Source of the DNA: Pseudomonas sp. Q2-TVG4-2
Lineage (GTDB): Bacteria > Pseudomonadota > Gammaproteobacteria > Pseudomonadales > Pseudomonadaceae
NCBI RefSeq assembly: GCF_013620795.1
Contig: NZ_LGLW01000001.1
Span: forward strand, 868,001 to 932,000
Length of the DNA: 64,000 nt
Direction: 5' to 3'
Shown: positions 5,696 through 38,628 of the stretch, one piece after another
Layout: each line of letters opens with the position of its first letter
How positions within the stretch are numbered: position 1 is the stretch's first letter
Program-made: the position numbers and the translations under genes
Notes under the pieces: model-generated
Told to the model about the DNA's origin: nothing
The model's database searches: none
What the model saw: the letters and a program-made list of their open reading frames with translations, nothing else

Positions 5696-6583
5696 TTACC
5701 AATCCAGGTGCAAGCGGCTCTCGAAACGGCGCCGCTCGCGCGTCAGCGGATCGCGAAATTCCAATGCCTGCGCCAGCAGCTTCAACGGCCTGGAGTAGTC
5801 ATCCTGATCGCGTCGTGCGCGCTCGATCAGCTCCGGATAGAAAGGATCGTTGCAAATGCCAGCCCCCAGCGTAGCCATCTGCAGGCGCAGCTGGTGTTTG
5901 CGACCAGTGACCGGATAGAGCGCGTAGCGCCAAAGCTCGCCGCGATGCTCAAGCACCTCGATACGCGTCTCGCTGTTGGGCTCGCCCTCGCCTTCCTTCA
6001 TCAGGAAGAACGGCTCACCCTCGACCATGTGCAGTCGCTGCTGACGCGGAAACGCCAGTTCGGGCAGCGCCGGGCAGATCGCCTCGTAGCGCTTGTCGAT
6101 CTTCCGCTCGCGGAACAGTGCCTGATAACGGCCGCGGCTTTCACGATTGGTGGAGAACAGCACCAGCCCAGCCGTTAGCCGGTCGATACGATGGATCGGC
6201 ACCAGATCTGGATTGCCCACACGCTTGCTCAGCCGCGCCAATAGCGTTTCATTGACGTACTCGCCGGCCGGCATCACCGGTAGGAAGTGCGGTTTGTCGG
6301 CCACCAGCAGATGCTCGTCGATATGCAACACCTGTTCCTTGAAGGGAACAGGCTTCTCGTCCGGCACTTCACGAAAGTAGTGAACCTTCAACCCGACCTG
6401 ATAGGGATGCGCGACGGTCAACGGCTGCCCATCCGCGCCCATGACGCGGCCACGGGCGAAGCGATCGGTCCAGGTCGCGCGGTCGATCGCCGGGAAATGC
6501 GCGCACAGGCAATCGAGCACCGTTGCCCAATCGCCTTGGGGTAAATGCAGGGTGCTGCGGGCATTGGGAGCAGGAGCGGACAT
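5696..6583 (-). CDS. RluA-family pseudouridine synthase
   Basis: Isomerises uridine to pseudouridine in structured RNA. The 295-residue protein has the family motif HRIDRLTAGLVLF, whose aspartate is the catalytic residue, then the GRYQALF and KRYEAI segments and a C-terminal GRKHQLRLQMA motif. The start MSAPAPNARSTL is preferred over an upstream in-frame ATG because the extra 32 residues are unlike the family and overlap the promoter region. An N-terminal extension before the catalytic domain (SxLHLPQGDWATVLDCL) is typical of the subgroup that includes tRNA/rRNA enzymes of unassigned target. The modified site cannot be inferred. Confidence 0.88.
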   Translation of the reverse strand: MSAPAPNARSTLHLPQGDWATVLDCLCAHFPAIDRATWTDRFARGRVMGADGQPLTVAHPYQVGLKVHYFREVPDEKPVPFKEQVLHIDEHLLVADKPHFLPVMPAGEYVNETLLARLSKRVGNPDLVPIHRIDRLTAGLVLFSTNRESRGRYQALFRERKIDKRYEAICPALPELAFPRQQRLHMVEGEPFFLMKEGEGEPNSETRIEVLEHRGELWRYALYPVTGRKHQLRLQMATLGAGICNDPFYPELIERARRDQDDYSRPLKLLAQALEFRDPLTRERRRFESRLHLDW

Positions 6584-6770
6584 GACTAAGGTATGCGAGC
6601 GGAAACGGCCGATGATGATAACCGACTGCGCCGTGGCAGCTCCGACAGTAGCACCTCGAATTACGGCAATTTTCACCACGGCCTGTCGATTTGCATCGAT
6701 GCCAGTCGACCATCCGAGCGCGCATCGAACTCATCGATGCGCCATCGCTCGTTCCGCAACGGAGGTCACG

Positions 6771-7547
6771 ATGAACAACCATCCGATCGTTTCCCGTCAG
6801 CAGTGGCTGGCCGCCCATACCGAACATCTGCTCAAGGAAAAGCAGGTCACCCGTCAACGCGAGGCCCTTGCCGCGGCCCGTCGCGAATTGCCCTGGATGC
6901 TCGTGGAAACGGATTACCGGTTCCAGGACGCACAAGGGACAGTGGGCCTTGAGGAGCTGTTCGATGGACGCAGCCAGCTGATCATCAAACATTTCATGTT
7001 CGGCGCCGACTGGCAGGAAGGCTGTGTCGGCTGCTCCTTCGAGATGGACCACCTGCAGGGCGCCCTGGTGCACCTGGCCAACCACGACGTCAGCGTCGTG
7101 GCTGTGTCGCGCGGCCCTTTCGAAGCGATCGAGGCCTTTCGCCGACGTATGGGCTGGCAGATTCGCTGGGTGTCGTCTGCCGGCAGTGATTTCAATCGCG
7201 ACTTCCACGTCTCGTTCGATCCCGAGGATATCGTCGAAGGCAAGGTGTTCTACAACTTCACCTGGGAGCCGTTCGTCTGTGAAGAGCTGTCGGGTTTCAG
7301 CGTGTTCTATCGCGACGAGGACGGGCGCATCTTTCACACGTTCTCGGCATATGGGCGCGGCGCGGAGGAGTTACTGGGCAGCTATGTGCTGCTCGATATG
7401 ACACCCAACGGGCGCAACGAAAACGAACGGCACAACCTGACCGATTGGGTCCGCCATCATGACCGTTACGGCAGCGGAGGCAGCGTGGGCCCCGATGGGC
7501 GCGCCGTTCCAGCTGCCCAAGAATCGGCTTCAGACTGTTGCCATTGA
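6771..7547 (+). CDS. DUF899 family thioredoxin-like protein
   Basis: A 258-residue cytoplasmic protein. The start is set by a strong GGAGG ribosome site 5 bases before the ATG. It shows the DUF899 pattern: an N-terminal helical region (EALAAARRELPW), then a thioredoxin-like core with FGADWQEGCVGCSFEMDH, in which the C-x2-C pair sits where thioredoxins keep theirs, followed by VVAVSRGPFEAIEAFRRRMGW and a conserved SVFYRDEDGRIFHTFSAYGRGAE stretch. The biochemical role of the family is unknown; a redox or adduct-handling role is inference. It lies 201 bases before the TPP enzyme in the same direction and may not be in its operon. Confidence 0.85.
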   Translation: MNNHPIVSRQQWLAAHTEHLLKEKQVTRQREALAAARRELPWMLVETDYRFQDAQGTVGLEELFDGRSQLIIKHFMFGADWQEGCVGCSFEMDHLQGALVHLANHDVSVVAVSRGPFEAIEAFRRRMGWQIRWVSSAGSDFNRDFHVSFDPEDIVEGKVFYNFTWEPFVCEELSGFSVFYRDEDGRIFHTFSAYGRGAEELLGSYVLLDMTPNGRNENERHNLTDWVRHHDRYGSGGSVGPDGRAVPAAQESASDCCH

Positions 7548-7748: not shown

Positions 7749-9548
7749 ATGGCAATGACAGTGGGTGACTACCTAATCGAACGCCTCTACCAATGGGGCG
7801 TTCGCCGCATCTATGGCTATCCTGGCGACGGCATCAACGGCGTGTTCGGCGCCCTCAATCGTTCGGATGAAAAGATTCGCTTCATCCAGGCACGCCATGA
7901 GGAGATGGCTGCTTTCATGGCTTCTGCCGATGCCAAGTTCAACGGCGGCCTCGGCGTCTGCATCGCCACCTCTGGCCCTGGGGCGGCACACCTGATAACC
8001 GGCCTGTACGACGCGCGCCTGGACCATATGCCGGTGTTAGCCATCACCGGACAGAAATCGCGCACCGCACTAGGGAGTCATTACCAGCAGGAAATCGATT
8101 TGGTCTCGCTGTTCAAGGATGTTTCCGGCGCGTTTGTCGAGCAGGCCAGCGCACCGGCCCAGGTCAGGCATCTGATCGACCGGGCCATTCGTACCGCGGT
8201 GGGCGAGCGCAAGGTAGCGACCATCATTCTACCCAGTGATCTGCAGGACGCCGAATACAGCGAGCCACCACGCGCCCATGGCGCGGTGCATTCAGGCATC
8301 GGTTACACGCGGCCGAAAATGGTGCCCTACGAGGCTGACCTGCAGCGCGCCGCAGACGTGCTCAATGCCGGCAAGAAGGTCGCCATCCTGGTCGGTGCCG
8401 GGGCGCTGAACGCCACCGATGAGGTCATCGCGGTTGCCGAAAAACTCGGGGCCGGGGTGGCCAAGGCGCTGTTGGGCAAAGCGGCGGTACCGGACGATCT
8501 GCCCTGGGTGACCGGCTCCATTGGTTTGCTCGGCACCGAGCCGAGCTACAAGCTGATGACGGAATGCGACACTCTGCTGATGATCGGTTCGGGCTTCCCC
8601 TACTCCGAGTTCCTGCCCGAAGAAGGCCAGGCGCGAGGCGTACAGATCGACCTCAAGGCAGACATGCTGAGCATTCGCTACCCCATGGAAGTCAGCCTGC
8701 AAGGCGACTCCGCCGAAACACTCCGAGCGCTGCTGCCGCTGCTCACCGAGAAGACCGAACGCAACTGGCGCAGCGACATCGAAGGCTGGCGGATGGAATG
8801 GGAACAGACCCTTGAAAAGCGTGCCATGACCCAGGCGGACCCCGTCAACCCTCAGCGCGTCGCGTACGAACTGTCGCCGCGCCTGCCCGACTATTCGATC
8901 ATCACCAGTGACTCGGGCTCCTGCGCCAACTGGTACGCGCGGGACGTGAAGATCCGCCGCGGCATGATGTGCTCGCTGTCTGGGGGGCTGGCCTCGATGG
9001 GTGCAGCGGTGCCCTACGCCATCGCCGCCAAGTTCTCGCACCCTGATCGGCCGGTCGTTGCGATGGTTGGCGACGGCGCGATGCAGATGAACAACCTGGC
9101 CGAACTGATCACTGTCGCCAAGTACTGGAAGGAGTGGCAGAACCCGCAATGGATCTGCTGCGTATTCAACAACGAGGACCTCAACCAGGTGACCTGGGAG
9201 CAGCGGGTAATGGAAGGCGATCCTAAGTTCGAGGCGTCGCAGAACATCCCCAATGTGCCCTATCACCGCTTCGCCGAGTCGATCGGTCTGAAAGGCATCT
9301 ATGTCGACCGGGAAGATCGTGTTGCTGCCGCATGGGATGAAGCCTTCGCCTCTGACAAACCCGTGTTGATCGAATTCAAGACCGACCCGAACGTGCCGCC
9401 GCTGCCACCGCACATCACGCTGGAACAGGCGAAGAAATACGCCTCGGTGTTGCTGCATGGCGACCCGGATCAGGGCGGGATCATCAAGCAATCGGCCAAG
9501 CAGGTGCTCAGCAAGGTGATGCCCGGGCATGACAAGGATAAAGAATGA
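7749..9548 (+). CDS. Thiamine-pyrophosphate-requiring enzyme, pyruvate oxidase/acetolactate synthase type
   Basis: A 599-residue TPP enzyme with the three-domain plan of pyruvate oxidase and acetolactate synthase. The N-terminal PYR domain has GYPGDGINGVFGAL and the catalytic glutamate context ARHEEMAAFMA; the central domain has VAILVGAGAL; the C-terminal PP domain has the TPP/Mg motif GDGAMQMNNLAEL, beginning at the GDG. It most resembles YdaP/PoxB-like proteins annotated as thiamine pyrophosphate-requiring protein. The start MAMTVGDYLIERL is preferred because AGCGAGG lies upstream and homologous enzymes begin near VGDYL. Its stop overlaps the next start by 4 bases (ATGA). Substrate is unproven; decarboxylation of pyruvate or a 2-keto acid is likely. 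Confidence 0.9.
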   Translation: MAMTVGDYLIERLYQWGVRRIYGYPGDGINGVFGALNRSDEKIRFIQARHEEMAAFMASADAKFNGGLGVCIATSGPGAAHLITGLYDARLDHMPVLAITGQKSRTALGSHYQQEIDLVSLFKDVSGAFVEQASAPAQVRHLIDRAIRTAVGERKVATIILPSDLQDAEYSEPPRAHGAVHSGIGYTRPKMVPYEADLQRAADVLNAGKKVAILVGAGALNATDEVIAVAEKLGAGVAKALLGKAAVPDDLPWVTGSIGLLGTEPSYKLMTECDTLLMIGSGFPYSEFLPEEGQARGVQIDLKADMLSIRYPMEVSLQGDSAETLRALLPLLTEKTERNWRSDIEGWRMEWEQTLEKRAMTQADPVNPQRVAYELSPRLPDYSIITSDSGSCANWYARDVKIRRGMMCSLSGGLASMGAAVPYAIAAKFSHPDRPVVAMVGDGAMQMNNLAELITVAKYWKEWQNPQWICCVFNNEDLNQVTWEQRVMEGDPKFEASQNIPNVPYHRFAESIGLKGIYVDREDRVAAAWDEAFASDKPVLIEFKTDPNVPPLPPHITLEQAKKYASVLLHGDPDQGGIIKQSAKQVLSKVMPGHDKDKE

Positions 9549-10654
9549 CCGCTCGGCCGGACGCGGCCATTCGCGCGCTACGGGTCGGGGCCTACCGCGT
9601 TCCGACCGACGCGCCCGAGGCCGACGGTACCTTTCGGTGGGACGCGACCACGCTGGTGCTGGTTGAGCTGGATGCGGCCGGCGAGACCGGCATGGGATAT
9701 ACCTATGCCGACGCCTCGTTGGTGCGGCTAATCGACGACCATCTGCGCCCATTGGTTGTAGGTGCCGACCCGATGGCCATAGCCGGCATCGCCGAGCAGC
9801 TCTGGGCCAGCGTGCGCAATCTGGGGCGTTCAGGCCTGGCCGCCTGTGCAATTTCGGCAGTCGACGGTGCGCTGTGGGATCTCAAGGCGAAGTGCCTTGG
9901 CGTGCCGCTGGCGCAGCTGCTGGGCACGCGGCGGACTGCAGTACCGGTGTACGGCAGCGGCGGGTTCACGAGTTATGCCGACGACAGGTTGCGCGACCAG
10001 CTTGGGCGCTGGGTAGAAGAGGACGGCTGCCGCTGGGTGAAGATGAAAATCGGCGCCGATGCCGATCATGACGGCCAGCGCGTGGCCGCGGCTCGGGATG
10101 CGGTCGGTGACGCCGGGCTGTTCATCGACGCCAACGGTGCGCATAGCAGCCGCAGCGCCATCGCTTTCGCCGCGCGCATCGCCGAGTACCGTGTCGGCTG
10201 GTTTGAGGAGCCGGTCAGTTCGGATGATTTGAACGGGCTGAGCGCGGTGCGTGAGGCTGTCGGCGCACAGGGACTGGCGGTGGATATCGCCGCTGGGGAA
10301 TACGCATATACGCCGGACGATTTCCGCCGGCTGCTCCAGTGTGGCGCCGTCGATGTGTTGCAGGCTGACGCGACTCGGTGCGGCGGCATCAGCGGTTTTC
10401 TGCAGGCAGCAGCCTTGAGCGATGCCTTTCATATCGATGTTTCTGCGCATTGCGCCCCTGCCTTGCATCGACACGTGGCTTGCGCGGTGCCGCGACTTCG
10501 ACATATCGAATGGTTTCACGACCACGTGCGCCTGGAGTCACGGTTGTTCGACGGGGCTCCTGAAATCGATCGGGGCGTGATCACCCCAGACTGGAGTCGG
10601 CCTGGTCATGGCTTGCAGTTCAAGCATGCCGATGCGCGGCAGTACCAGATATGA
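9545..10654 (+). CDS. Enolase-superfamily (mandelate racemase/sugar-acid dehydratase) enzyme
   Basis: A 369-residue member of the mandelate racemase/muconate lactonizing subgroup. Visible features: capping domain at the N-terminus; KMK catalytic lysine motif in WVKMKIG; metal ligands in DANGA, EEPVSSDDL and AAGEY; then LQADATRCGGISG and the C-terminal SAHCAPALHRHVACA with the catalytic histidine region and HIEWFHDH. This pattern is typical of acid-sugar dehydratases, making 2-keto-3-deoxy sugar acids. It overlaps the TPP enzyme stop by ATGA, so translation is probably coupled. Substrate is not determinable by eye. Confidence 0.88.
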   Translation: MTARPDAAIRALRVGAYRVPTDAPEADGTFRWDATTLVLVELDAAGETGMGYTYADASLVRLIDDHLRPLVVGADPMAIAGIAEQLWASVRNLGRSGLAACAISAVDGALWDLKAKCLGVPLAQLLGTRRTAVPVYGSGGFTSYADDRLRDQLGRWVEEDGCRWVKMKIGADADHDGQRVAAARDAVGDAGLFIDANGAHSSRSAIAFAARIAEYRVGWFEEPVSSDDLNGLSAVREAVGAQGLAVDIAAGEYAYTPDDFRRLLQCGAVDVLQADATRCGGISGFLQAAALSDAFHIDVSAHCAPALHRHVACAVPRLRHIEWFHDHVRLESRLFDGAPEIDRGVITPDWSRPGHGLQFKHADARQYQI

Positions 10655-10684
10655 CGCTCGCCCAACCTGCGCAAGAGAGGCTTC

Positions 10685-11659
10685 ATGGTTTCAGGCACTC
10701 AACTCAAGCTGATCGCCGCTGGCGCAACCACGGCGTTGGCTGCGGCCTCACTGGTCTGGCAAAAGCATGAACGACGCGGTCGCGGGCTGCTCTTCCGCCC
10801 CGCGGACGACAGCCTCGTCGCGGCGGCACGCACGCTCAATCGTGGCGCCGGGTTGCTGGCCCTTGCAGTCGGTATGGACAGCGCCGCTGAGCATTACCGC
10901 GGCGACTTTCAGAACCGGGCCATGTACACGCCACTGGCGGTATCGGCGCTGTCATTGCTCGCAAGCAGTCAGGGGCAGCAGGACCCGGACCCAGCCTCCA
11001 GCCGACTGCGCAACGGGATCTACCTGGGCACGGTGTTAACCGGTCTGGCCGGGACGGGCTTCCATCTCTACAACGTCACCAAGCGGCCCGGCGGCTTCTG
11101 CTGGAGCAACCTGTTCTATGCTGCCCCCCTTGGCGCGCCGTCGGCGCTGGTGCTTTCCGGCGTACTTGGTTATTACGCCGAACGGTTGCGCGCCGAAACG
11201 GATGACGCGATACCGCAAGTGTTCGGCCTACCGGCAGGCAAGGCGGTCGCGCTGATGGCGGCCGCCGGGTTGCTCGGCACCACGACCGAGGCCGGGCTGC
11301 TGCATTTTCGCGGCTCGTTCCAGAACCCCGCCATGTACTTGCCTGTCACTGCGCCTCCGATCGCCGCAGGGCTGCTGGTCGCCACGGCGCTTGCCGGGCC
11401 ACAACATCCGCGTCTGCGCTGGTGGTCGCGTTTGACCCTGCGTTTCACCACGTTCATGGGCCTCGCCGGAGCGGGCTTCCATACCCTGGGCATCGCCCGC
11501 AACTTCGGCGGCTGGCGCAACTGGCGGCAGAATCTGCAGGCCGGCCCGCCGCTCCCCGCTCCGCCGAGTTTCACCGGCCTGGCGCTGGCGGGCCTCGCCG
11601 CACACACCTTGCTCGATGAAGAGCGCGACCTGTCGGAATACCGATGGTGGGACAAATGA
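10685..11659 (+). CDS. Uncharacterised membrane protein with internal duplication
   Basis: A 324-residue protein rich in alanine, leucine and glycine with roughly eight hydrophobic segments. I do not recognise a named family. Its two halves are clearly related: HYRGDFQNRAMYTPLAV (residues 70-86) matches HFRGSFQNPAMYLPVTA (207-223), and GLAGTGFH (120-127) matches GLAGAGFH (259-266), followed in each case by a glycine-rich FGG/PGG turn. The spacing between copies is constant at about 138 residues, so the gene arose by tandem duplication of a module with about four helices. It is 30 bases after the enolase-type gene with an AAGAGAGG ribosome site and overlaps the next gene by ATGA, so it belongs to the dehydrogenase operon. 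The conserved histidines could bind heme or metal (inference). Confidence 0.85.
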   Translation: MVSGTQLKLIAAGATTALAAASLVWQKHERRGRGLLFRPADDSLVAAARTLNRGAGLLALAVGMDSAAEHYRGDFQNRAMYTPLAVSALSLLASSQGQQDPDPASSRLRNGIYLGTVLTGLAGTGFHLYNVTKRPGGFCWSNLFYAAPLGAPSALVLSGVLGYYAERLRAETDDAIPQVFGLPAGKAVALMAAAGLLGTTTEAGLLHFRGSFQNPAMYLPVTAPPIAAGLLVATALAGPQHPRLRWWSRLTLRFTTFMGLAGAGFHTLGIARNFGGWRNWRQNLQAGPPLPAPPSFTGLALAGLAAHTLLDEERDLSEYRWWDK

Positions 11660-12297
11660 ATCAGCGCTATCCCGGCTATGACGTACAGAGCAAACGCCAG
11701 GGTCCCTCCTGGAACGAGCCGACTCGCCGGGCGATCGATACCCGGGTTTCGGTACCCGATCAGCCGCGCTTTTTTGACTCCACGCAATGGCTTGTGCTCA
11801 GGGCGGTTTGCGCGCGAATCGTGCCGCAGCCGAGCAATAGACCGCCGGTGCCATTAGCGGCGCTGGTCGATTCGAAGGCCTTCCAGCGGCACGGCGAGGG
11901 CTATCGGGATGCGCGCCTGCCACCGTTGCCGCAAGCCTGGCGCAGCGGGTTAGCCGCGCTGAACGCCGAGGCGCAAACGCTACACAGCAAAGCTTTCGCG
12001 CAGCTCAGCGACCACGAGCAGGATGCGCTATTGGCAGCCATGCAGAAGGGCCAGCTGCACCATCCGGCGTGGGGCACGATGCCGCCCAAGGTGTTCTTCA
12101 GCGAGCGGGTGGTGCATGACATCACCGCCGCGTATTACAGCCATCCGACAGCCTGGAACGAAATCGGCTTCGGCGGGCCCGCCAGTCCGCGCGGCTATGT
12201 GCGGCTGGAGGCCAACGCCCGTGATGCCTGGGAACCGGCCGAGGCCAAACCCGACGACGAAGGCAAAGCCAGGGAGCTCAATCACCGTGTCAGATGA
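11656..12297 (+). CDS. Gluconate 2-dehydrogenase subunit 3-like protein (GMC dehydrogenase small subunit)
   Basis: A 213-residue protein resembling the gamma subunit of membrane FAD dehydrogenases (gluconate, sorbitol and related). Recognisable parts are FFDSTQWLVLRAVCARIVPQ, DGEGYRD-like and FSERVVHDITAAYYSHPTAWNEIGFGGPASPRGY (shown here in pieces: FSERVVHDIT, YYSHPTAWNEIGFGGPASP). The start at MNQRYPG gives the ATGA overlap with the previous gene. Usual gamma subunits carry a Tat signal that exports the complex; none is visible here. It overlaps the GMC catalytic subunit by 11 bases. Probably a partner or chaperone of that subunit. Confidence 0.82.
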   Translation: MNQRYPGYDVQSKRQGPSWNEPTRRAIDTRVSVPDQPRFFDSTQWLVLRAVCARIVPQPSNRPPVPLAALVDSKAFQRHGEGYRDARLPPLPQAWRSGLAALNAEAQTLHSKAFAQLSDHEQDALLAAMQKGQLHHPAWGTMPPKVFFSERVVHDITAAYYSHPTAWNEIGFGGPASPRGYVRLEANARDAWEPAEAKPDDEGKARELNHRVR

Positions 12298-13945
12298 GTT
12301 GTTTTTGCGAGCACTGCAAACCACCCGCGGTCGCGACGGGCGCGCCCCCGATGTATTCAAGGTCGGCCGTTGGATACCCATGCGCGAGTACCCACAGAAC
12401 GAGCCCGTGGACTTCGCCATTGTCGGTACCGGGGCGGGTGGCGGCACCCTTGCCTGCAAGCTCGCCGAAGCCGGATTTTCGGTGGTGGCCTTCGATGCAG
12501 GCGCCTGGTGGAGACCGCTTGAGGAATTTGCCTCGGATGAAGGACACCAGCAGAAACTCTTCTGGACGGACGAACGCCTGTGCGACGGGGCGAACCCGCT
12601 CAAGCTCGGGAGCAACAATAGCGGCATGGCGGTGGGCGGCAGCACGGTGCACTTCGCCATGGTCTCGTTGCGGTTTCGCCCGGAATGGTTCAAGGCGCGT
12701 AGCCTGCTTGGCTATGGCTGCGACTGGCCGATCGACTGGCAGGAAATGTGGCGTTATTACACCGAGGTCGAACAGACGCTGAAAATCGCCGGACCGGTTC
12801 GCTACCCCTGGGGCCCGAAGCGTCCCCGCTATCCCTATCGCCAGCATGAGGTGAACGCTTCCGGGCTGGCGCTGGCCCAGGCCTGCGAATCGCTCGGCGT
12901 GGATTGGTCGCCTACCCCCTTGGCGACACTCTCTGCACCGCGCGGCGACGCACCGCCCTGCGTTTACCGGGGTTTCTGCGTCACAGGGTGCTCCACCAAC
13001 GCCAAGCAGAGCGTACTGAACACCTGGATACCCCGCGCGGTGAAGGCTGGCGCGGAAATAAGAGATCTGGCGATGGTCGGTCGCGTCGAGACGGGCCCGG
13101 ACGGCTTGGCTACCGGACTGCACTTTCATCGGGAAGGCCGGTGGCAGTTCCAGCGCGCCAAGCATGTGGTCATCGCTGGCTATGCCATCGAAACCCCCAG
13201 ACTGCTGCTCAATTCAGCCAATGATCGATACCCGGACGGGCTCGCCAACAGTTCCGGGCTGGTCGGCAAGAACCTCATGGTGCATAGCAATCAAGCGGTA
13301 TGGGGCACGCTGGAAGACGAGATTCGCTGGTACAAGGGCCCGCCGTCGCTGGCGGTGTGCGAGCACTGGAATTACGAAGACCGCGGCAAGGACTTCTTCG
13401 GTGGTTATGCATTCATGAGCCAAGGTCCGCTACCGGGCGCCTGGGCCGCGACCCAGACCGGCAACCACGGTCTCTGGGGGCAGGCGCTGGTGGACGAAAT
13501 GCAGCACTACAACCATCAGGTGGGCCTGAAGATCGTTGGCGAAACCCTGCCGCAAGCACACAACCGGGTCACGTTGGCCGATGAAACCGATCAGTACGGC
13601 CTGCCGATCGCGCGCGTCAGCTGGAGCTATAGCGACAATGATTGGCGGTTGATCGAGCATGCGCTGGACTTCACGCGCCGCGGTCTCGAGGGAATCGATG
13701 CGAAAAACATCTGGGCCGAAGCCGAGGGTACTGCCCATCTTGCCGGAACCGCGCGGATGGGCAGCGATCCGGCCAGCAGCGTGGTCGATGGTGACTGCCG
13801 CAGCTGGGATATCCGTAATCTGTGGATCTGCGACGGGTCGGTGATGCCCACCATTGGCGGCGCCAATCCGTCCCTGACCATCCAGGCGATCGCCTGCCGC
13901 ACCGGCGACCGCATCCGTGAACTGGCGCGCCGGGGGGAACTGTAG
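12287..13945 (+). CDS. GMC-family FAD-dependent dehydrogenase, catalytic subunit
   Basis: A 552-residue GMC oxidoreductase. The GTG start at 12287 (MSDELFLRAL) is preferred: AGGGAG lies upstream and the start falls just inside the end of the small-subunit gene. The FAD-binding motif is VGTGAGGGTLACKLAEAG near residue 47. Cysteines at about 225, 231 and 235 (CVYRGFCVTGC) form C-x5-C-x3-C, the [3Fe-4S] ligand pattern known from FAD-glucose dehydrogenase type enzymes. The C-terminal domain has HLAGTARMG and the GMC ending VMPTIGGANPSLTIQAIA. No signal peptide is seen, and no cytochrome c subunit is encoded nearby. Substrate is probably a sugar, sugar acid or polyol. Confidence 0.88.
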   Translation: MSDELFLRALQTTRGRDGRAPDVFKVGRWIPMREYPQNEPVDFAIVGTGAGGGTLACKLAEAGFSVVAFDAGAWWRPLEEFASDEGHQQKLFWTDERLCDGANPLKLGSNNSGMAVGGSTVHFAMVSLRFRPEWFKARSLLGYGCDWPIDWQEMWRYYTEVEQTLKIAGPVRYPWGPKRPRYPYRQHEVNASGLALAQACESLGVDWSPTPLATLSAPRGDAPPCVYRGFCVTGCSTNAKQSVLNTWIPRAVKAGAEIRDLAMVGRVETGPDGLATGLHFHREGRWQFQRAKHVVIAGYAIETPRLLLNSANDRYPDGLANSSGLVGKNLMVHSNQAVWGTLEDEIRWYKGPPSLAVCEHWNYEDRGKDFFGGYAFMSQGPLPGAWAATQTGNHGLWGQALVDEMQHYNHQVGLKIVGETLPQAHNRVTLADETDQYGLPIARVSWSYSDNDWRLIEHALDFTRRGLEGIDAKNIWAEAEGTAHLAGTARMGSDPASSVVDGDCRSWDIRNLWICDGSVMPTIGGANPSLTIQAIACRTGDRIRELARRGEL

Positions 13946-13958: not shown

Positions 13959-14225
13959 TCAGTCCTGTTCCTCGTGGGTCACTTCGCCGGTTTTGCCGTC
14001 CAGCTTGAAGTCCCAGACCTTGCCATCGGCCTTCATCCCCTCGCCTTCCCAGGAATCGCCCTCAGCGTCGATGGAGTGGAGCGTGGTAAAGCCAGCGGAC
14101 TTGGCCTTTTCCACCGCCTGCTCCAGGGTGATCCAGTCGGCACCCGGCTTGTCCGCCAGCGCGACTCCGCTGGCTATTCCGAAAACGGCGATGGCAAGGG
14201 CGGCGGTCAGGTGTTTCTGGTTCAT
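13959..14225 (-). CDS. PepSY-domain secreted protein
   Basis: An 88-residue small protein: signal peptide (MNQKHLTAALAIAVFGIASGVALA), then a single PepSY domain (WITLEQAVEKAKSAG, ending VWDFKLDGKTGEVTHEEQD). The start is preferred over a longer in-frame one because the signal peptide begins there, with AAAGGATC upstream. It converges on the GMC gene with 13 bases between the stops. PepSY proteins are periplasmic and often linked to metal stress or protease inhibition; the neighbouring BqsRS-like system makes the former likelier. Confidence 0.8.
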   Translation of the reverse strand: MNQKHLTAALAIAVFGIASGVALADKPGADWITLEQAVEKAKSAGFTTLHSIDAEGDSWEGEGMKADGKVWDFKLDGKTGEVTHEEQD

Positions 14226-14338
14226 GGCGAGATCCTTTGTTTCATGATCGGGATGAGCTGCGATGTGCTCTTGTAAATGCGAGCCCGACGGCCGGCCGGG
14301 GTTCACCGATACGTCTGGAATGGGGCCGGCGGTCTGTT

Positions 14339-14701
14339 TCAGCGCTTTTCAATGGAGACGAGGGCCGCTTCGTCGCCTTCGCTCTGAAAGCCGATCCGGA
14401 CCTCATCACCCACCGCCAGGCCCTCGAGCTGTTCGCGCCGGGCCTGGAACTCCATGGTCGATGCCGGCCATTTCAACGCGGGTACGGGTCCGTGAGCGAT
14501 GGTTACAACGCCTCGTTCGCGATCCAGGGCCTCGATGGTGCCGCTGGCGCGCATGACCGGCTCGGACACCATTTCGGTGGCGGGCCCGGCGTCGACATCC
14601 GGCGACCCCGCCGGAGCCGTCGGCTTGAGCAGATCCTGTGCCAGCACGGTCGGAGCGAGCAGCAGCAGGCTTGATAGCGTGACGCAATGGAGTGGTTTCA
14701 T
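14339..14701 (-). CDS. CusF-like copper-binding periplasmic protein
   Basis: A 120-residue protein with a signal peptide (MKPLHCVTLSSLLLLAPTVLA) and a C-terminal OB-like domain of the CusF type. The core LKWPASTMEFQARREQLEGLAVGDEV fits the CusF tryptophan-methionine region (W-x2-x-TM-x-F), with GTIEALDRERGVVTIAHGP before it carrying the conserved histidine. The family binds Cu(I) or Ag(I) in the periplasm. It is divergent from the PepSY-regulator operon at 14862 and shares its intergenic region, which contains a palindrome. Confidence 0.75.
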   Translation of the reverse strand: MKPLHCVTLSSLLLLAPTVLAQDLLKPTAPAGSPDVDAGPATEMVSEPVMRASGTIEALDRERGVVTIAHGPVPALKWPASTMEFQARREQLEGLAVGDEVRIGFQSEGDEAALVSIEKR

Positions 14702-14778
14702 GGCAGGCCTCCCGGAACAGGTGGACGTACGCTGCATTGGACAATGCAGCTGCTGCTATTGCTGCCCCTGGGCGCGGT

Positions 14779-14799
14779 TGAACGACACAGTCTCGTTCA
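14779..14799. promoter_or_regulatory. Palindrome in divergent promoter region
   Basis: TGAACGA-N7-TCGTTCA is a perfect 7-bp inverted repeat midway between the CusF-like gene (minus) and the PepSY-regulator operon (plus). It may be an operator serving both; the binding protein is unknown. Confidence 0.45.
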
Positions 14800-14811
14800 G
14801 CTTCGTGTAAG
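14796..14811 (+). promoter_or_regulatory. Candidate BqsR-type direct repeat
   Basis: TTCAG-CTTCGT-GTAAG has the spacing of the P. aeruginosa BqsR box (TTAAG-N6-TTAAG, recalled from literature), with 4 of 5 matches in each half. It lies about 50 bases upstream of the first PepSY gene of the operon containing a BqsR-like regulator. Autoregulation is inferred. Confidence 0.4.
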
Positions 14812-14861
14812 CCACAGCTCGTAACCTGTGAACCGTCGAAACCCACACAGGAAACGAAACC

Positions 14862-15170
14862 ATGAAGAACCTGACGACGCTTATCACCGCTGCCGCCCTC
14901 GCCCTGGGCACGAACCTGGCGATGGCCCGCGATCTCGGCCCGGACGAAGCACTCAAACTGCGCGACGCCGGCACCATCCAATCCTTCGAGAAGCTCAACG
15001 AAGCGGCAATAGCCAAACACCCTGGCGCCACTGTCGAAGAAACCGAGCTGGAGGAGGAGTACGGCCGTCACATCTATCAGGTTGAATTGCGCGACGACAA
15101 AGGTGTGCAATGGGACATTGAGCTCGATGCCAAAACCGGCGAAGTGCTCAAGGACCATCAGGACGATTAA
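14862..15170 (+). CDS. PepSY-domain secreted protein, first gene of regulator operon
   Basis: A 102-residue protein with a signal peptide (MKNLTTLITAAALALGTNLAMA) followed by one PepSY domain (LGPDEALKLRDAGTIQSFEKL, then EETELEEEYGRHIYQVEL and IELDAKTGEVLKDHQDD). The acidic ELEEEYG stretch is a plausible cation-binding surface. An ACAGGAAAC ribosome site precedes the ATG. It overlaps the next PepSY gene by one base (TAATG). Probably a periplasmic accessory of the downstream sensor. Confidence 0.85.
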   Translation: MKNLTTLITAAALALGTNLAMARDLGPDEALKLRDAGTIQSFEKLNEAAIAKHPGATVEETELEEEYGRHIYQVELRDDKGVQWDIELDAKTGEVLKDHQDD

Positions 15171-15475
15171 TGCGACCCGCCACCCTTCTCACCATTCCGC
15201 TCGTTCTGCTGCTCGCCGCCACCCCGGTGGCGAGCCGTGACCTGGATCAGGATGAAGCCCTGCGGCTGCGTCGCGATGGGTTGATCCTGCCATTGGAAAA
15301 GGTTTTGCAGCACGCCATGGTGCGTTATCCCGGTGCCCGGCTGTTGGAAGCCGAATTGGAAGAGGAGGATGGCCTCTACGTCTACGAAATCGAATTGCTG
15401 ACCGCCGACGGCGTCGCCCGCGAGCTGGAACTGGACGCGCAAGATGGCGCGCTGCTCAAGGACGAGGTGGACTGA
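15170..15475 (+). CDS. PepSY-domain secreted protein, second copy
   Basis: A 101-residue protein, clearly paralogous to the preceding one: signal peptide ([21 protein letters not shown]), then [40 protein letters not shown] and [16 protein letters not shown]. The acidic EAELEEEDG motif is shared with the upstream copy. Starts and stops overlap by one base on both sides (TAATG and TGATG), so translation of the two PepSY proteins and the response regulator is likely coupled. Confidence 0.85.
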
Positions 15476-16140
15476 TGCGCCTGCTACTGGTCGAAGATAG
15501 CGTACCGCTGGCCGACGAATTGCTGGCCGGTCTGGCGCACCAGGGCTACGCCACTGATTGGCTGGCCGATGGCCGCGACGCCGACTACCAGGGCACCAGC
15601 GAGCCCTACGACCTGATCATTCTCGACCTCGGCTTGCCCGGCAAGCCGGGGCTGGAGGTGCTGCGCGATTGGCGCGCGCGCGGCCTGGCGACGCCGGTGC
15701 TGATCCTTACCGCCCGCGATTCCTGGGCCGAGCGCATCGACGGACTGAAAGCCGGTGCCGACGATTATCTGACCAAACCCTTCCACCCTGAAGAACTGCT
15801 GCTGCGCATCCAGGCACTGCTCCGCCGTGCCCATGGCATGGCCAACCAGCCGCTCCTGCACGCCGCCGGCCTGGCGCTGGACGAGGCACGCCAGAGCTGC
15901 CGCAAGGATGGTCAGGATATCGAGCTGACCGCCGGAGAATTTCGCCTGCTGCGCTACTTCATGCTGCATCCCGGCCAGCTATTGTCGAAGACTCAGCTGG
16001 CCGAACATCTTTATGACGGCGAAACCGAGCGCGATTCCAATGTCATTGAAGTCCACGTCAACCGCCTGCGCGGCAAGCTCGGTCGCGAGCTGATCGAAAC
16101 GCGGCGCGGTCAGGGCTACCGCTTCGGCGGCGCCTCTTGA
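15475..16140 (+). CDS. OmpR-family response regulator (BqsR/CarR-like)
   Basis: A 221-residue two-component response regulator. The receiver domain has the acidic pair in LLVEDS, the phosphoacceptor aspartate in [14 protein letters not shown], the threonine in PVLILTARD and lysine in DDYLTKPF. The C-terminal winged helix ends with [14 protein letters not shown] and the [12 protein letters not shown] wing. It is joined to the upstream PepSY gene (TGATG) and the downstream sensor kinase (4-base overlap). Similarity to P. aeruginosa BqsR is argued from operon layout and sensor motif, not from alignment. Confidence 0.9.
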
Positions 16141-17465
16141 AATCCATTCAGCGCAGCCTCAGCCTCGGGCTGATTGCAGGCCTGCTGCTGGTCGGCCTGC
16201 TATTGGTGCAGACCAGCCTGTGGCTGTTCGAAGCCGGCCTGCGGCGCAACCTGGCCATCGACCTGCGGGAGGAAACCGAGGGGTTGCTGATCGCCGTGGT
16301 GCAGGGCTCGGACGGCTTCAAGCTAGACTCGAGTCGGCTTAACCCTCGGTACCAGCGGCCGTTTGCCGGCCACTATTTCCGTATCGACCTGCCGACGCAG
16401 AGCTGGCGGTCGCGCTCGCTATGGGATGCCGAACCGGCTTGGCCTACCGACAATGGGCTGGCCGATGAGCTGCTGGACGGCCCGCAGGATCAGCGGCTGC
16501 TGAGCTATCGCGCCGAATATCGCCGCGACGGCCAGGCCATCGTCATCAACGTGGCGCGCGATTACACGCCGATCCTCAAAAGCTTCGCTCAGGTTCGCCT
16601 CGGCGGCCTGGCGCTGGTTGGTCTGGCACTGCTGGTGTTTCTGCTGTTGCAACGCTATGCGGTCAAGCTCGCCATGCGCCCGCTGGAGCGCGCCCGCCAG
16701 CAGATCGCCCAGTTGCAGCAGGGCCAGCGCCAGCAACTGGACATCCAGGCGCCGGTCGAACTGCAACCATTGGTAGAACAAATCAACCACTTGCTGGCGC
16801 ATACCGACGACACGCTCAAGCGCTCGCGGCACGCCCTGGGCAATCTGGGTCATGCGCTGAAAACGCCACTGGCGGTGCTCGCCAGCCTTGTTCGCCACGA
16901 AGAGCTGGCTGCTCATCCGCAACTGCAAGCGAATCTTCGTGAACAGCTGGAGCAGATCCAGCAGCGCGTCTCCCGCGAACTGGGACGCGCCCGCCTGGCT
17001 GGCGACGTATTGCCGGGTGCCTATTTCGACTGCGCCGAGGAGCTCGCCCCGCTATTCGAAACCCTGAACATGATCCACCGCCGCGACCTTCATCTGCATT
17101 GGCAAGCGCATGAAGGTTGTCGCCTGTCCTGGGACCGTGAAGACATGCTCGAGCTGCTCGGCAATCTGCTGGATAACGCCTGCAAGTTCGCCCGGTCTGA
17201 AGTGCTGCTGACCATCACGCAGTCGCCGGACGGCTATCTCATACGGGTAGAAGATGACGGACCGGGCATCCCGACCGAACGTCGCGACGCGGTTCTGGAG
17301 CGCGGCATACGCCTCGACGAGCGTGCCGAAGGGCACGGCTTGGGGCTTGGCATCGTGCGGGATATTCTGGCCGCCTGGAGCGGTCGGCTGACACTGGAAC
17401 AAAGTGCGTTGGGCGGATTACGCGCAAGCATCTACTTGCCGATGCACAAGCGCAGGACGCAATAG
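16137..17465 (+). CDS. Sensor histidine kinase with periplasmic RExxE motif (BqsS-like)
   Basis: A 442-residue membrane sensor kinase starting with TTG inside the regulator stop codon region. Transmembrane segment 1 spans about residues 9-32; a periplasmic domain of about 125 residues follows; segment 2 is near 158-182; then HAMP-like linker, HisKA with [17 protein letters not shown] (phosphoacceptor His) and HATPase with N-box [17 protein letters not shown] and GHGLGLGIV. Directly after the first membrane segment, residues 44-48 read REETE, which is RExxE, the Fe(II)-binding motif described for BqsS. This supports ferrous iron or another divalent cation as signal. Confidence 0.9.
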
Positions 17466-33318: not shown

Positions 33319-34407
33319 TCAGAGCCGCCCGGCAGGCGCGTACGGTTCCGGGTCGATGCAGGGCGCGTTGCCAGTCATCAGATCGGCCAGTAACTGGCAC
33401 GAGGCAGGCGCAAGCACCAGGCCGTTCCGGAAGTGTCCGCAATTGAGCCAGAGCCCGTCATGGCCGGGTACCGGGCCGATATACGGAATGCCCTCAGGCG
33501 ATGCGGGCCGCAGCCCTGCCCAATGCTTGATCACTTCGGCGTCGGCCAGCCCTGGCAGCAAGTCGAGGGCAGTCGCCTTTAGGCTTTCCAGCGCATCATT
33601 GGTAGGCGTCTTGTCGAAACCGACATCTTCCAGCGTACTGCCCACGAGAATATGACCATCACGTCGTGGGATCGCATAGCGCCGCTTGGCCAGCACCATG
33701 CTCGGCAGAAAATCTTCGGCACACTTGAAGAGAATCATCTGGCCCTTCATGGGCTTCACCGGCAGCTCGAACCCCAGCGTGGCCAGCAAGTTGCCGCTCC
33801 AGGCGCCCGCGGCGACGACAACCCGCTCGGCACGCATCTCGCCCTTTGTCGTCTGCACACCGACAACCCGCTGTCCATCGCGAACGAAGCCGGTTACGGG
33901 GCAGTGCTCGACGACCCGAACGTTGGGCAGCTTGATCAGTGCCGCACGCAACGCCTGCAGCAAGCGAGGGTTGCGCACGTTGGCCACACCAGGCATGAAC
34001 ACCGCGCGAGAAAAGCCTTCACCGAGGGCCGGCACAGCGGCATGCACCTCTTCTATCCCCACCCGGTGCAACGGTCGACGTTCACGCTCGGCCCAGGTCA
34101 GCGCCTCGCCTTCATCATCCAGATCCAGCCAGTAAAGCCCCGTCTCGTAAACCTCCGGATCGATACCGGTTTGCTCTCGCAAGCGCTCCCCCAACCGCGG
34201 ATAGAAATCCTGCGACCAATGCGCCAACGCCGTAACCGCCGGACTGTAACGCCACGGGTACAACGGCGAAACGATCCCACCGCCGGCCCAGGAGGCTTCG
34301 GTGCCCGTTTCGCCTGATTCGAGCAGGACGACTTCCTGGCCCGATCTCGCCAGTAAATAAGCCGATAGCAGCCCGATGACACCGCCACCAACAATCCCGT
34401 TTCGCAT
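33319..34407 (-). CDS. thiO: Glycine oxidase ThiO
   Basis: FAD-dependent amine oxidase of 362 residues that makes iminoglycine for the thiazole half of thiamine. The start MRNGIVGGGVIGLLSAYLL is chosen because the Rossmann motif GGGVIG begins there with GGGAGAA upstream. Further motifs: ESGETGTEASWAGGGIVSPL, VVVAAGAWSGNLL and the C-terminal WAGLRPASPEGIPYIGP and NCGHFRNGLVLAP. Located beside the pilus cluster, as in P. aeruginosa. Confidence 0.93.
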   Translation of the reverse strand: MRNGIVGGGVIGLLSAYLLARSGQEVVLLESGETGTEASWAGGGIVSPLYPWRYSPAVTALAHWSQDFYPRLGERLREQTGIDPEVYETGLYWLDLDDEGEALTWAERERRPLHRVGIEEVHAAVPALGEGFSRAVFMPGVANVRNPRLLQALRAALIKLPNVRVVEHCPVTGFVRDGQRVVGVQTTKGEMRAERVVVAAGAWSGNLLATLGFELPVKPMKGQMILFKCAEDFLPSMVLAKRRYAIPRRDGHILVGSTLEDVGFDKTPTNDALESLKATALDLLPGLADAEVIKHWAGLRPASPEGIPYIGPVPGHDGLWLNCGHFRNGLVLAPASCQLLADLMTGNAPCIDPEPYAPAGRL

Positions 34408-34420
34408 GATTTCTCCCAGA

Positions 34421-34444
34421 AAAAAAGGGCCATAGGCCCTTTTC
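34421..34444 (-). terminator. Rho-independent terminator after pilE
   Basis: On the minus strand AAAAGGGCC-TAT-GGCCCTTTTTTT, a 9-bp stem with a T-run, lies downstream of the pilE stop and just before the thiO start. It ends the minor pilin operon. Confidence 0.85.
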
Positions 34445-34458
34445 TCCACGTTAAGCTA

Positions 34459-34878
34459 TTACCAGCACTCCGCTACTGTCTTTCCACCTGCACTATCGTT
34501 CAGCCCACGTACACCGGCATGGGTCAATTCATAGTTGCCGCACGGATCACTAGCCATCGATCCGGTACGCGTGGCTCGCAGGGTATAGGTACTGGCAGTT
34601 GCGGCCTGAGAGGCGAGCACATAGGTCGCAGCTCCGCTGGCTGGCACATTCGCTTGAAATACGGTTGCCAAGGCTCCGCCCGCATCCAGATAAGTATTGT
34701 TTGCCGAGTAATGGCGCTCCAGTGCCTGAGCGGCATCTAGCAAAGCCGCTTTGACCTCCGCTCGTTTACTTTTTCTCACCGACTCGATGTAGCTAGGATA
34801 CGCGACTGCAGCAAGAATCCCGACGATCGTCACCACGATCATCAGCTCGATTAAGGTAAAGCCCCTTTCACGCTTCAT
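34459..34878 (-). CDS. pilE: Type IV minor pilin PilE
   Basis: A 139-residue pilin-like protein with the class III signal: MKRERG, cleaved before FTLIELMIVVTIVGILAAVA by PilD. Conserved Glu5 of the mature protein is present. It ends with a disulfide-bonded loop (DPCGNYELTHAGVRG ... VAECW). The start gives an ATGA overlap with pilY1. It is one of the priming minor pilins that start pilus assembly. Confidence 0.93.
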   Translation of the reverse strand: MKRERGFTLIELMIVVTIVGILAAVAYPSYIESVRKSKRAEVKAALLDAAQALERHYSANNTYLDAGGALATVFQANVPASGAATYVLASQAATASTYTLRATRTGSMASDPCGNYELTHAGVRGLNDSAGGKTVAECW

Positions 34879-37800: not shown

Positions 37801-38123
37801 TACAGTGCCTTAAACCCGCTCGCGCAGTCCCGCTGAGTTATAGTAGACAGGGAAATATTCCCATCTTCAACACCACCTCCCCAATAAAAACCCCCTCCGG
37901 ATTGATATATATAGTACACCGGCGCAAGAGTGTTAGTTTCCACCCCAAGCGGAGCAATTGCGTTATACATGCTTCCGGAGTTATCCACTAAAAGCATAAC
38001 GTTAGGTGGCACAGAGCCTGAAATAGAAAGCGGCTGATTGGGAAACGGACCAACAGCATAAACGGGCGCCGCCAAGTAAAGGACTAGAGCAGCACCCATC
38101 ATTGAAGCCTTATACTTTTCCAT
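34875..38123 (-). CDS. pilY1: Type IV pilus tip adhesin/assembly protein PilY1
   Basis: A 1082-residue exported protein. The start at MEKYKASMMGAAL is preferred to the GTG 6 bases earlier because TGAGG lies just upstream. A signal peptide (ALVLYLAAPVYA) precedes an N-terminal von Willebrand A-like domain with MIDAS residues DNSGSM (Asp47, Ser49, Ser51). The C-terminal half is the PilY1 beta-propeller (PLVVVGANDGMLHGFNA, LGYGGRGIFALDMTD, VYAGDVLGNLWKFDL). An EF-hand-like loop DVNNDKYFDTKD near residue 1000 could bind calcium. Compared with neighbouring genes the DNA is AT-rich. It sits between pilX and pilE; no pilY2 is present. Confidence 0.93.
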   Translation of the reverse strand: MEKYKASMMGAALVLYLAAPVYAVGPFPNQPLSISGSVPPNVMLLVDNSGSMYNAIAPLGVETNTLAPVYYIYQSGGGFYWGGGVEDGNISLSTITQRDCASGFKALYNTNGSGAVRRCYMLPDPAGSQRTRYTSKYLSYIYYTYTAAGASGNDLRAVLPNEYRMEVARNAAENIITANRGMRIGLSAFNGATSGNSGPGGSILRDILDLSAAKGVTQEQADQNYSDLVSEIGALQPIANTPLAETYYEVTRYYRGISRHQGAGSGDYTSPVQYRCQKNFGVVLTDGLPTHDSSFPENDPDGNSPDVAGSYNLPDWDGKNEAFGQPYSDGKNLSGTGEGDTLYLDDIAKFGYDIDLVKTGSDLAGKSFNDSAYPKQNLLTYTVGFAVDNQMLEDAAEYGHGAYYIANDSSQLNNALNSALQSIRRQMSSASAVSANTKRIQEGSLIYQARYNSADWTGEVLAYRVSLDGTVGDVAWRTSDAGKIPSPSARKIFTYNDDAGFTGIRGQALVWDNLNSIQRASLMKADETDNANAQKRLTWLRGGNDGAVLEAPYEGQRLRNRSSVLGDIVNSDPLFIGQQNNGYNVPNDADDVGEPADSYMAYVESKEGLTPLVVVGANDGMLHGFNANSGGEEFAYVPVSLFKTRAISPGATPGLIALTEPDYNHHFYVDGSFGLGDVYYKSSWKTYMVGTLGYGGRGIFALDMTDRNFEGSDVLWERTAPDTNEPTNNWNDLGYQFGEPTVSRVLVGSEDRYVSIFGNGYASNAGKAALYVVDSATGGLINKLTVTDPDGSTAPNGLSTATAFFDSNRRVTHVYAGDVLGNLWKFDLSSSKTSQWSSSLLFKARNSGARQPITAKVRVMLHPTLGRLVIFGTGQYLVAADKVNTELQTMYGIWDRDLSGTSNTVAKSKLLQQTFLNEAVANDREYRVLSQEPIDWDLHHGWYVNLRLEGGVLDGERVIATPSLSKDRALFTTFIPRSDPCLSGGESWVLGMDALSGGRLNESLFDVNNDKYFDTKDVVSCGSTSCAPSGFKLGDGTVDAPENLFGDGGDSGYVSGTGGSIEQFDMSGSGSRPGRMSWRQLK

Positions 38124-38130
38124 AAACACC

Positions 38131-38619
38131 TCAACGACTGACCGTGGACTGCAGGAGAACTACGGTATCGGTAGTTCCACCAACCGCTCGCGCTGTAACA
38201 CGATATGAATTGATAACTGAAACTTCGACATCGTCATTTGGGGTATACGCTCGAGTGGTTAGCCATTCGAGCGTATATCTTGGCGCACTTCGCACACCGG
38301 CGTAACTATCGGTTATACCCTGCGACCGTGCATCCCAGGGATAAGAATCGGCCATAGGCCGTATACCGTCATAATCCGCCCCTAACAATCCATTGGTACC
38401 AGCGTTCGAAAATACTATACCGGCTTGGCGCAAGTGATCCTCCCCTACACGTAATGCCGCCTCAGCCGCCTGGAACGCCAAATTACGGTCACGCTCGTTG
38501 CCCGCCATTCGCTCTTGCAAAGTGGAGTCCTGGATAGACGCGACACCGATCATGGTCAATATCAGCAGAAACACCAGACTAATAATAAGAGCGGAACCAG
38601 CCTGTTCTTGCTTATTCAT
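38131..38619 (-). CDS. pilX: Type IV minor pilin PilX
   Basis: A 162-residue pilin-like protein: short leader MNKQEQAG, then a hydrophobic N-terminal helix (SALIISLVFLLILTMIGVASIQ). This is a PilX-type leader, in which the residue at mature position 5 is not glutamate. Typical PilX features follow: QERMAGNERDRNLAFQAAEAALR. The pilX stop and the pilY1 start are 7 bases apart. Confidence 0.9.
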   Translation of the reverse strand: MNKQEQAGSALIISLVFLLILTMIGVASIQDSTLQERMAGNERDRNLAFQAAEAALRVGEDHLRQAGIVFSNAGTNGLLGADYDGIRPMADSYPWDARSQGITDSYAGVRSAPRYTLEWLTTRAYTPNDDVEVSVINSYRVTARAVGGTTDTVVLLQSTVSR

Positions 38620-38628
38620 TGCCGCACC

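Follow-up and report, generated by a model that had tools for sequence, protein, structure and literature searches.

What do five tightly packed genes, encoding a thiamine-diphosphate enzyme, an enolase-type protein, a membrane protein and two parts of a flavin dehydrogenase, do together in a bacterial cell? The question is raised by positions 7749-13945 of a 64,000-nucleotide stretch of the genome of Pseudomonas sp. Q2-TVG4-2 (contig NZ_LGLW01000001.1, positions 868,001 to 932,000), here called the window and numbered from its first letter. All five genes lie on the forward strand: TPP (7749..9548), a thiamine-diphosphate enzyme of NCBIfam NF006129 (PRK08273); ENO (9545..10654), an enolase superfamily protein of the mandelate racemase type; MEM (10685..11659), a membrane protein with two fused four-helix repeats; GDH3 (11656..12297), a gluconate 2-dehydrogenase subunit 3 (PF13618) in which no signal peptide is apparent; and GMC (12287..13945), a flavin adenine dinucleotide (FAD) dehydrogenase with a 3Fe-4S cysteine pattern and a GTG start inside GDH3. 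TPP and ENO share an ATGA overlap (9545-9548), as do MEM and GDH3 (11656-11659); a 30-base gap separates ENO from MEM (10655-10684), and GDH3 and GMC overlap by 11 bases, from the GMC start at 12287 to the GDH3 stop at 12297. These coordinates bear out the arrangement on one strand, with overlaps and a 30-base gap, given in a preliminary description made from the sequence alone. Pfam assigned TPP_enzyme N, M and C domains to the first protein, MR_MLE N and C to ENO, none to MEM, Gluconate_2-dh3 (PF13618) to GDH3 and GMC N and C to the last. The title of the preliminary description omitted the PF13618 small subunit, which is the most telling for function.

The gene order recurs far beyond chance, since MEM, GDH3 and GMC follow one another in that order on one strand at all 33 loci compared, from several classes and two phyla (Pseudomonadota and Deinococcota), and all five genes keep the order and strand of the window at 24 of them. 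This set, in which every MEM is intact, comprises the window, six further Pseudomonadaceae loci, four loci from distant genomes and 22 plasmid loci. MEM was found in 6 of 56 genomes of the window's own genus, here called Stutzerimonas (one copy being a fragment), in 5 of 398 genomes drawn evenly over the phylum and in 4 of 385 drawn evenly over the class of genome G337, two of these four being already in the phylum draw; a MEM scan of genome contigs gave only four close relatives. The 22 plasmid records come from Burkholderia, Paraburkholderia, Caballeronia, Rhizobium, Bradyrhizobium, Nitrobacter, Methylocystis, Komagataeibacter, Lichenicola, Croceicoccus and Deinococcus peraridilitoris. Loci L014 and L015, judged by length, are the same contigs as in genomes G026 and G037 and were not counted; a locus with a broken MEM (L022) was placed among those without an intact operon; and the near-duplicates L090, L093 and L094 were kept for counts of order, neighbors and motifs and dropped from distance correlations. 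ENO is present at 30/33 loci (absent from L025, L080 and L081) and TPP at 31/33, the other two (L017 and L088) being cut by the end of the contig or record; in four of the 31 (L024, L082, L087 and L093) TPP is divergent. Two loci found later stand outside the set, and in one of them (L143) TPP-ENO is divergent from MEM-GDH3-GMC. In addition, a looser form occurs on a plasmid of Granulicella (Acidobacteriota), with TPP, ENO, a cyclase, MEM (28% identity), GDH3 and a GMC annotated in two pieces. The preliminary description had supposed one unit, and wide recurrence, rather than rare co-occurrence, is what was found. An origin in phages was considered and is not indicated: phage records yielded no MEM, many copies are on plasmids, and insertion sequence (IS) elements lie near some.

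Co-inheritance also speaks for a single unit. GMC orthologues of at least 60% identity were confined to the five MEM genomes of the 398, the next best match having 42%, and among plasmids they were found in the 22 MEM-bearing records and, as a partial copy without MEM, in one more (P. aromaticivorans). Pairwise distance matrices of ENO, MEM, GDH3 and GMC correlated at r 0.83-0.92 over 25 loci, each above 999 permutations; shared species history adds to such correlations, which are therefore support and not proof.

The best structural alignments of GMC were to the alpha subunit of the Burkholderia cepacia FAD-dependent glucose dehydrogenase (FAD-GDH; 6a2u) and to fructose dehydrogenase. In the B. 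cepacia enzyme, Cys212, Cys218 and Cys222 ligate the 3Fe-4S cluster, His105 carries the FAD, His476 and Asn519 form the catalytic pair, and Cys213 makes a disulfide to the small subunit (PMC6719666). Aligned to 6a2u, the window GMC has Cys225, Cys231 and Cys235 (codons within 12959..12991) at the cluster positions with the same spacing, His122 at the FAD position and His484/Asn527 as catalytic pair, and all of these are invariant in 33/33 sequences, whereas the disulfide cysteine is replaced by Val226 (Ala in L026). The PF13618 small subunit is encoded beside GMC. The operon thus shares with FAD-GDH and fructose dehydrogenase (6a2u, 8k6k) the histidine for covalent FAD, the His/Asn pair and the three cluster cysteines (all residues compared with 6a2u), and the small subunit. 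GMC had previously been taken for a lone dehydrogenase; instead, these residues suggest that it likely joins GDH3 in an iron-sulfur complex, as the catalytic subunit.

The differences from these solved enzymes lie in export and wiring. In B. cepacia the small subunit is the carrier for twin-arginine translocation (Tat) export, and a third subunit bears three heme c (PMC6719666). In contrast, the operon has no visible Tat signal on its small subunit and no triheme cytochrome c subunit, MEM taking their place, and the Cys213 disulfide is absent. The start of GDH3 lacks a strong hydrophobic stretch (the 13-residue mean hydropathy over the first 48 residues has a median of 0.12 and a highest value of 1.25, n = 33), and no CxxCH motif was found in any operon protein at the 33 loci. 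Because of these two features, the GMC-GDH3 complex is probably cytoplasmic and, judged from the sequences, must pass its electrons to an acceptor that is not a cytochrome c encoded in the operon. Open reading frames with one CxxCH lie within 1.5 kb at five loci other than L074 and L080. The window genome has no other PF13618 protein. Three GMC relatives that lack MEM have PF13618-like proteins, which showed no Tat signal either, so they provide no positive control, and the lack of export may be common to wider GMC cousins. These relatives (about 40% identity) are at L144:9114-11170, L145:8634-10708 and L146:8719-10736; by eye, their GDH3-like frames run upstream into an alpha/beta hydrolase-like part, perhaps a fused cousin system.

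MEM could be the link to the membrane. The window protein matched no Pfam, NCBIfam or PHROG family, and its profile found no match among PDB sequences up to E 10. Four other MEM proteins had no Pfam match above the cut-off; the form in Deinococcus sp. AJ005 gave two DUF matches at E 0.05. The duplication within MEM that was noted from the sequence was confirmed: the two repeats, of about 130 residues each, align to one another with an hhalign probability of 99.1 and 31% identity. Repeat 1 (10820..11200, forward strand, residues 46-172) carries His70 and His127, and repeat 2 (11228..11626, forward strand, residues 182-314) carries His207 and His266; all four histidines are invariant among 33 aligned sequences, two per repeat, in the motifs E-H-x-R-G (most members) or L-H-x-R-G, and F-H. 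An AlphaFold model of a single repeat (pLDDT 80, pTM 0.75) has four main helices; the histidines sit close to the ends of helices one and three, hence on alternate helices. In known b-type cytochromes, heme is held between alternate helices, and a heme between alternate MEM helices would fit this placement.

Furthermore, single-repeat MEM genes precede GDH3-GMC in Frondihabitans (Actinomycetota) and in Deinococcus AJ005 and D7000 (the last by match positions only), and both histidines are kept in the two single-repeat forms that were read. The Deinococcus single-repeat query recovered 21 of the 22 double-repeat plasmid records, while that from Frondihabitans found four plasmid records only, none of them double-repeat proteobacterial. 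We take MEM to be one family, in which the window form appears to be a fusion of two copies of the single repeat. The open reading frame before the single-repeat gene in Deinococcus AJ005 was considered as a second MEM half and discarded, being VKOR-like instead; this VKOR-like gene (L150:5161-5550) scores just under the Pfam cut-off.

ENO keeps the catalytic residues of the mandelate racemase group. Residues K166, K168, D195, E221, E252, D275, H302 and E322 are invariant in 29 of 29 aligned sequences (a partial copy in L017 was left out), and we take them to correspond, in role and reference numbering, to the Lys-x-Lys motif, the Asp/Glu/Glu metal ligands, the Asp-His dyad and the Glu of mandelate racemase. 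These residues fit the acid-sugar dehydratase role proposed for ENO earlier, its substrate being conjectural. With the acid-sugar dehydratases of the mandelate racemase subgroup (L-talarate/galactarate dehydratase and others), ENO shares Lys-x-Lys, three acidic metal ligands and the His-Asp dyad, but it reached no equivalog model. Its nearest solved structure is 3cyj (336 bits), which is listed among those with a putative function only (PMC2996407).

The three loci without ENO offer a further indication of its role. A flavin mononucleotide (FMN) alpha-hydroxy-acid oxidase is encoded near the operon at all three, and at none of the 30 ENO-bearing loci (E 1e-20, in the fetched stretches), so that ENO or the oxidase accompanies 33/33 copies. 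In L025 the oxidase gene lies directly upstream of TPP, in L080 it abuts GMC end to end, and in L081 it is upstream, separated by a single gene. Since the oxidase is present where ENO is missing, either enzyme may provide the PoxB-like TPP enzyme with a 2-oxo acid. Starting from an aldonic acid, a dehydratase and a hydroxy-acid oxidase alike yield a 2-oxo acid, the class of compound on which TPP decarboxylases act; the case for a single pathway is built mainly on this.

TPP itself belongs to its own family, scoring 1111 bits against NF006129 (curated cut-off 724). Against pyruvate-oxidase models it reached 320-458 bits, with cut-offs of 638-893, and it stayed under the PoxB/pyruvate oxidase equivalog cut-offs (395 of 792 bits for NF006591, 458 of 742 for NF006377); acetolactate-synthase models gave up to 277 bits. 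PoxB has a quinone-linked role. The Escherichia coli PoxB structure (3ey9) is the best solved relative of TPP (298 bits over residues 1-570), though TPP falls far below the PoxB model cut-off. Residues HEE 50-52 are invariant in 32/32 sequences (31 operon loci and L022).

We propose, tentatively and with a little more doubt than confidence, that MEM, GDH3 and GMC form a membrane-bound dehydrogenase for sugars or sugar acids, of the FAD/3Fe-4S type known from gluconate, fructose and FAD-glucose dehydrogenases, which faces the cytoplasm and uses MEM as its route to quinone, and that ENO and TPP act on its product. Electrons would pass from the substrate to the covalent FAD and the 3Fe-4S cluster of GMC, then through MEM to quinone and a terminal oxidase, with MEM serving as anchor and probably offering a b-type heme or a quinone site through its four invariant histidines. 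The aldonic acid so formed would be dehydrated by ENO to a 2-keto-3-deoxy acid, and in the ENO-less versions the FMN alpha-hydroxy-acid oxidase would make the 2-oxo acid. The PoxB-like enzyme would then decarboxylate the 2-oxo acid, probably oxidatively and with electrons going to quinone, leaving a chain one carbon shorter. If ENO acted on gluconate, oxidative decarboxylation by TPP would give 2-deoxyribonate. Oxidative deoxyribonate pathways exist in relatives of Pseudomonas and Burkholderia (PMC6365646), and such catabolism would take up the 2-deoxyribonate expected from 2-keto-3-deoxygluconate, a link that we infer. The pathway sketched in the preliminary description, with the dehydrogenase making a sugar acid, the dehydratase a keto-deoxy acid and the TPP enzyme decarboxylating a product, keeps its single unit and its dehydratase; GMC would not act alone, TPP is separable, and the substrates, the order of steps and the pathway stay conjectural.

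A similar gene set has been described once. In Asaia bogorensis, the genes Asbog_02184-02187 were reported in 2015 as a four-gene 'pyruvate oxidase operon', called unique to that species and ranked among the membrane-associated quinone-reducing dehydrogenases. Of three conditions, co-culture gave high expression; the genes changed their expression as one operon, and the profile resembled that of the cyo-2 oxidase (PMC4596401). The order is alike (PoxB-like TPP enzyme, membrane protein with seven predicted helices, GDH3-domain protein, GMC oxidoreductase); the Asaia operon differs in having no ENO and in being described from one genome, and cluster residues, repeat, histidines and spread are not treated in section 3.5 of the paper. 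By the kind and order of its genes, likened from the description alone, it appears to be the ENO-less form seen at L025, L080 and L081, and the account supports a single quinone-linked unit. The remark in the preliminary description that no pathway with exactly this set was known therefore holds only in part, given the four-gene form without ENO (PMC4596401). Apart from that paper, no description of the operon was found in the open-access PMC literature; in the parts consulted, other open-access papers name PF13618 genes, in one case within a three-subunit gluconate dehydrogenase. What was already known are the kinds of dehydrogenase, dehydratase and TPP enzyme and the four-gene form in one species; new here are the five-gene form with its spread over two phyla and a looser form in a third, the MEM repeat structure with its histidines and single-repeat relatives, the exchange of ENO and oxidase, and a complex that carries the cluster and FAD residues while showing neither an export signal nor a cytochrome c.

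Genes near the operon were counted by tblastn with queries from operon loci, for comparison with 22 loci without an intact operon (21 with TPP and no MEM, and L022). A short-chain dehydrogenase/reductase (SDR) was nearby at 17/33 operon loci versus 1/22, a glycoside hydrolase family 15 (GH15) protein at 15/33 versus 0/22 and cytochrome c oxidase subunit I at 11/33 versus 2/22; cytochrome bd was nearby at three of the 33 and gluconolactonase at two. Nine plasmid records are from Caballeronia or Paraburkholderia, and the counts are therefore not independent. Three GH15 proteins examined by Pfam have a trehalase-like N-terminus, and on several plasmids universal stress protein, BON, PRC-barrel, YetF and terminal oxidase genes are neighbors. 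A low-oxygen locus of Burkholderia was also considered and set aside, as the portions of PMC6127331 and PMC3759415 consulted name no gluconate, thiamine, GMC, glycosyl hydrolase or enolase. The window genome encodes two GH15 proteins elsewhere (32-33% identity).

Within the window, a DUF899 gene (6768..7547, forward strand) lies upstream of TPP across a 201-base gap and is probably a unit separate from the operon; such a gene often precedes TPP in Stutzerimonas, including many loci that have TPP without the operon. On the 3' side, 13959-17465 holds PepSY, CusF-like and two more PepSY genes and a two-component system. Farther away, positions 34001-42000 have a G+C content of 0.49-0.55, versus about 0.61 elsewhere, and a negative GC skew, possibly a foreign island.

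Several observations, in this paragraph and the next, weigh against the proposed respiratory complex and its pathway. The negative for a Tat signal in GDH3 comes from hydropathy and reading only, with neither a predictor nor a Tat positive control, and 4 of the 33 GDH3 proteins have an Arg pair in their first 35 residues, without a hydrophobic run. Open reading frames with at least three CxxCH occur within 1.5 kb at 2/33 loci (L074 and L080), which leaves room for a cytochrome c partner; in L080, the ENO-less copy of Methylocystis iwaonis, a three-CxxCH c-type cytochrome is encoded just upstream of TPP (5910-6998). The Asaia authors lean to the periplasm, allow the cytoplasmic side and take the unit for a pyruvate oxidase (PMC4596401). 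As for the ENO/oxidase exchange, two of the three oxidases were themselves queries (each still recovers the remaining pair, at 55-67% identity), and L025 is a relative of L081, with SDR proteins 73% identical and TPP genes that pair in the tree; the independent evidence is therefore less than a count of three. Neither TPP nor ENO was found near the single-repeat MEM of Frondihabitans (L149), and in Deinococcus AJ005 (L150) ENO is in two pieces and TPP is absent. The other late-found locus, L142, on a contig of 9972 bases, has MEM-GDH3-GMC only, with neither TPP nor ENO in 4.1 kb upstream. Near the operon at the seven Pseudomonadaceae loci, no SDR, GH15, lactonase or oxidase was found.

The place of TPP bears on whether there are really two modules, a GMC-GDH3-MEM-ENO cassette for sugar oxidation and an independent PoxB-like oxidase sharing only promoter and quinone pool, a division that we consider possible though doubtful. 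TPP (NF006129) was found in 26 of the 398 genomes of the phylum draw, 21 of them without MEM, and in 29 of the 56 Stutzerimonas genomes, 24 of them without an intact operon, so that TPP is not the inseparable part of a single system that it was first held to be. Its co-inheritance is also weaker, with distances correlating to those of the other four at r 0.74-0.83 (25 loci, each above 999 permutations), and no TPP lies near the single-repeat loci L149 and L150. In the Stutzerimonas locus L054, TPP stands between the same flanks with only the four other genes missing: DUF899 comes before it, and PepSY, CusF, PepSY, PepSY, response regulator and histidine kinase genes after it, their order kept. 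Loci without an intact operon were examined in 18 of the 24 Stutzerimonas genomes, most with 1.5 kb of downstream sequence only, and two of the 18 hold relics, a MEM stub in L022 (9988-10113) and ENO and GMC pieces in L130 (3311-4133), both downstream of an intact TPP gene. The shared flanks and these relics show that, in some places at least, the four genes disappeared and TPP was retained; TPP is probably useful by itself. Among the 21 TPP loci without MEM, L068 has ENO beside TPP and L053 a GMC piece. On the other side, TPP is first in the operon or divergent beside it at all 31 MEM loci that are long enough, Deinococcus peraridilitoris included, and it accompanies the operon in Granulicella as well.

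The remaining alternatives concern what MEM, TPP and the whole unit do. MEM may be only a structural anchor or a heme-free quinone-binding subunit, with the 3Fe-4S cluster of GMC passing electrons directly to quinone at the membrane surface; we think this unlikely, if well within reason. The sequence has no readable heme motif, AlphaFold gives plain four-helix units with the histidines near helix ends, and modeling adds little on the side of a cytochrome: the whole-MEM model was poor (pLDDT 54) and gave no useful Foldseek match, and the single-repeat model had no Foldseek match at E 0.001 and VIA Z scores up to 11.5, a range uninformative for helical bundles, with generic bundles only. However, four histidines invariant over two phyla and kept in single-repeat forms ask for more than anchoring. 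That the whole unit is one multi-subunit pyruvate oxidase, with TPP catalytic and MEM, GDH3 and GMC passing its electrons on, is the sense of the name given to the Asaia form (PMC4596401) and agrees with PoxB being the nearest solved relative of TPP. We nevertheless find it improbable: GMC keeps its own complete active site and its FAD and cluster residues, and so is probably a dehydrogenase in its own right; the pyruvate-oxidase scores fall far short of their cut-offs; and the idea has no place for ENO, present at 30/33 loci, or for the ENO or hydroxy-acid oxidase found with every copy. We give as little credence to TPP being a carboligase or plain decarboxylase whose aldehyde a nearby SDR reduces or oxidizes: the acetolactate-synthase scores and the SDR at 17 loci speak for it, but pyruvate-oxidase models score higher, and the seven Pseudomonadaceae copies have no SDR found nearby. 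Finally, the operon might serve survival under stress or low oxygen, drawing respiratory electrons from trehalose or glucose, rather than growth. The GH15 genes with their trehalase-like N-termini, the universal stress protein and other neighbors named above on several plasmids, the patchy occurrence in Stutzerimonas (6/56) and the culture-dependent expression in Asaia (PMC4596401) are consistent with such a role, which is compatible with the proposed respiratory dehydrogenase; as the evidence is mostly neighborhood, we regard it as a less than probable addition.

A bolder extension of the proposed dehydrogenase, which we hold to be quite unlikely as it stands, is that the operon encodes a non-phosphorylating, intracellular respiratory route that shortens sugars from the acid end, with a cytochrome-like, four-histidine MEM fused from single four-helix units. 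Two or three of its steps would pass electrons to quinone, and the oxidase variant could cycle on the shorter acid. This reading gives a different chemistry to a gene set once noted as a pyruvate oxidase operon. The solved FAD/3Fe-4S sugar dehydrogenase of this type is exported, wired to a triheme cytochrome c and of interest for glucose sensors. If the interpretation favored here is true, a widespread version connected to an unclassified membrane protein would represent a new coupling of sugar oxidation to the quinone pool, and the unnamed membrane protein family, the PRK08273 TPP enzymes and the enolase group of 3cyj would each gain a role.

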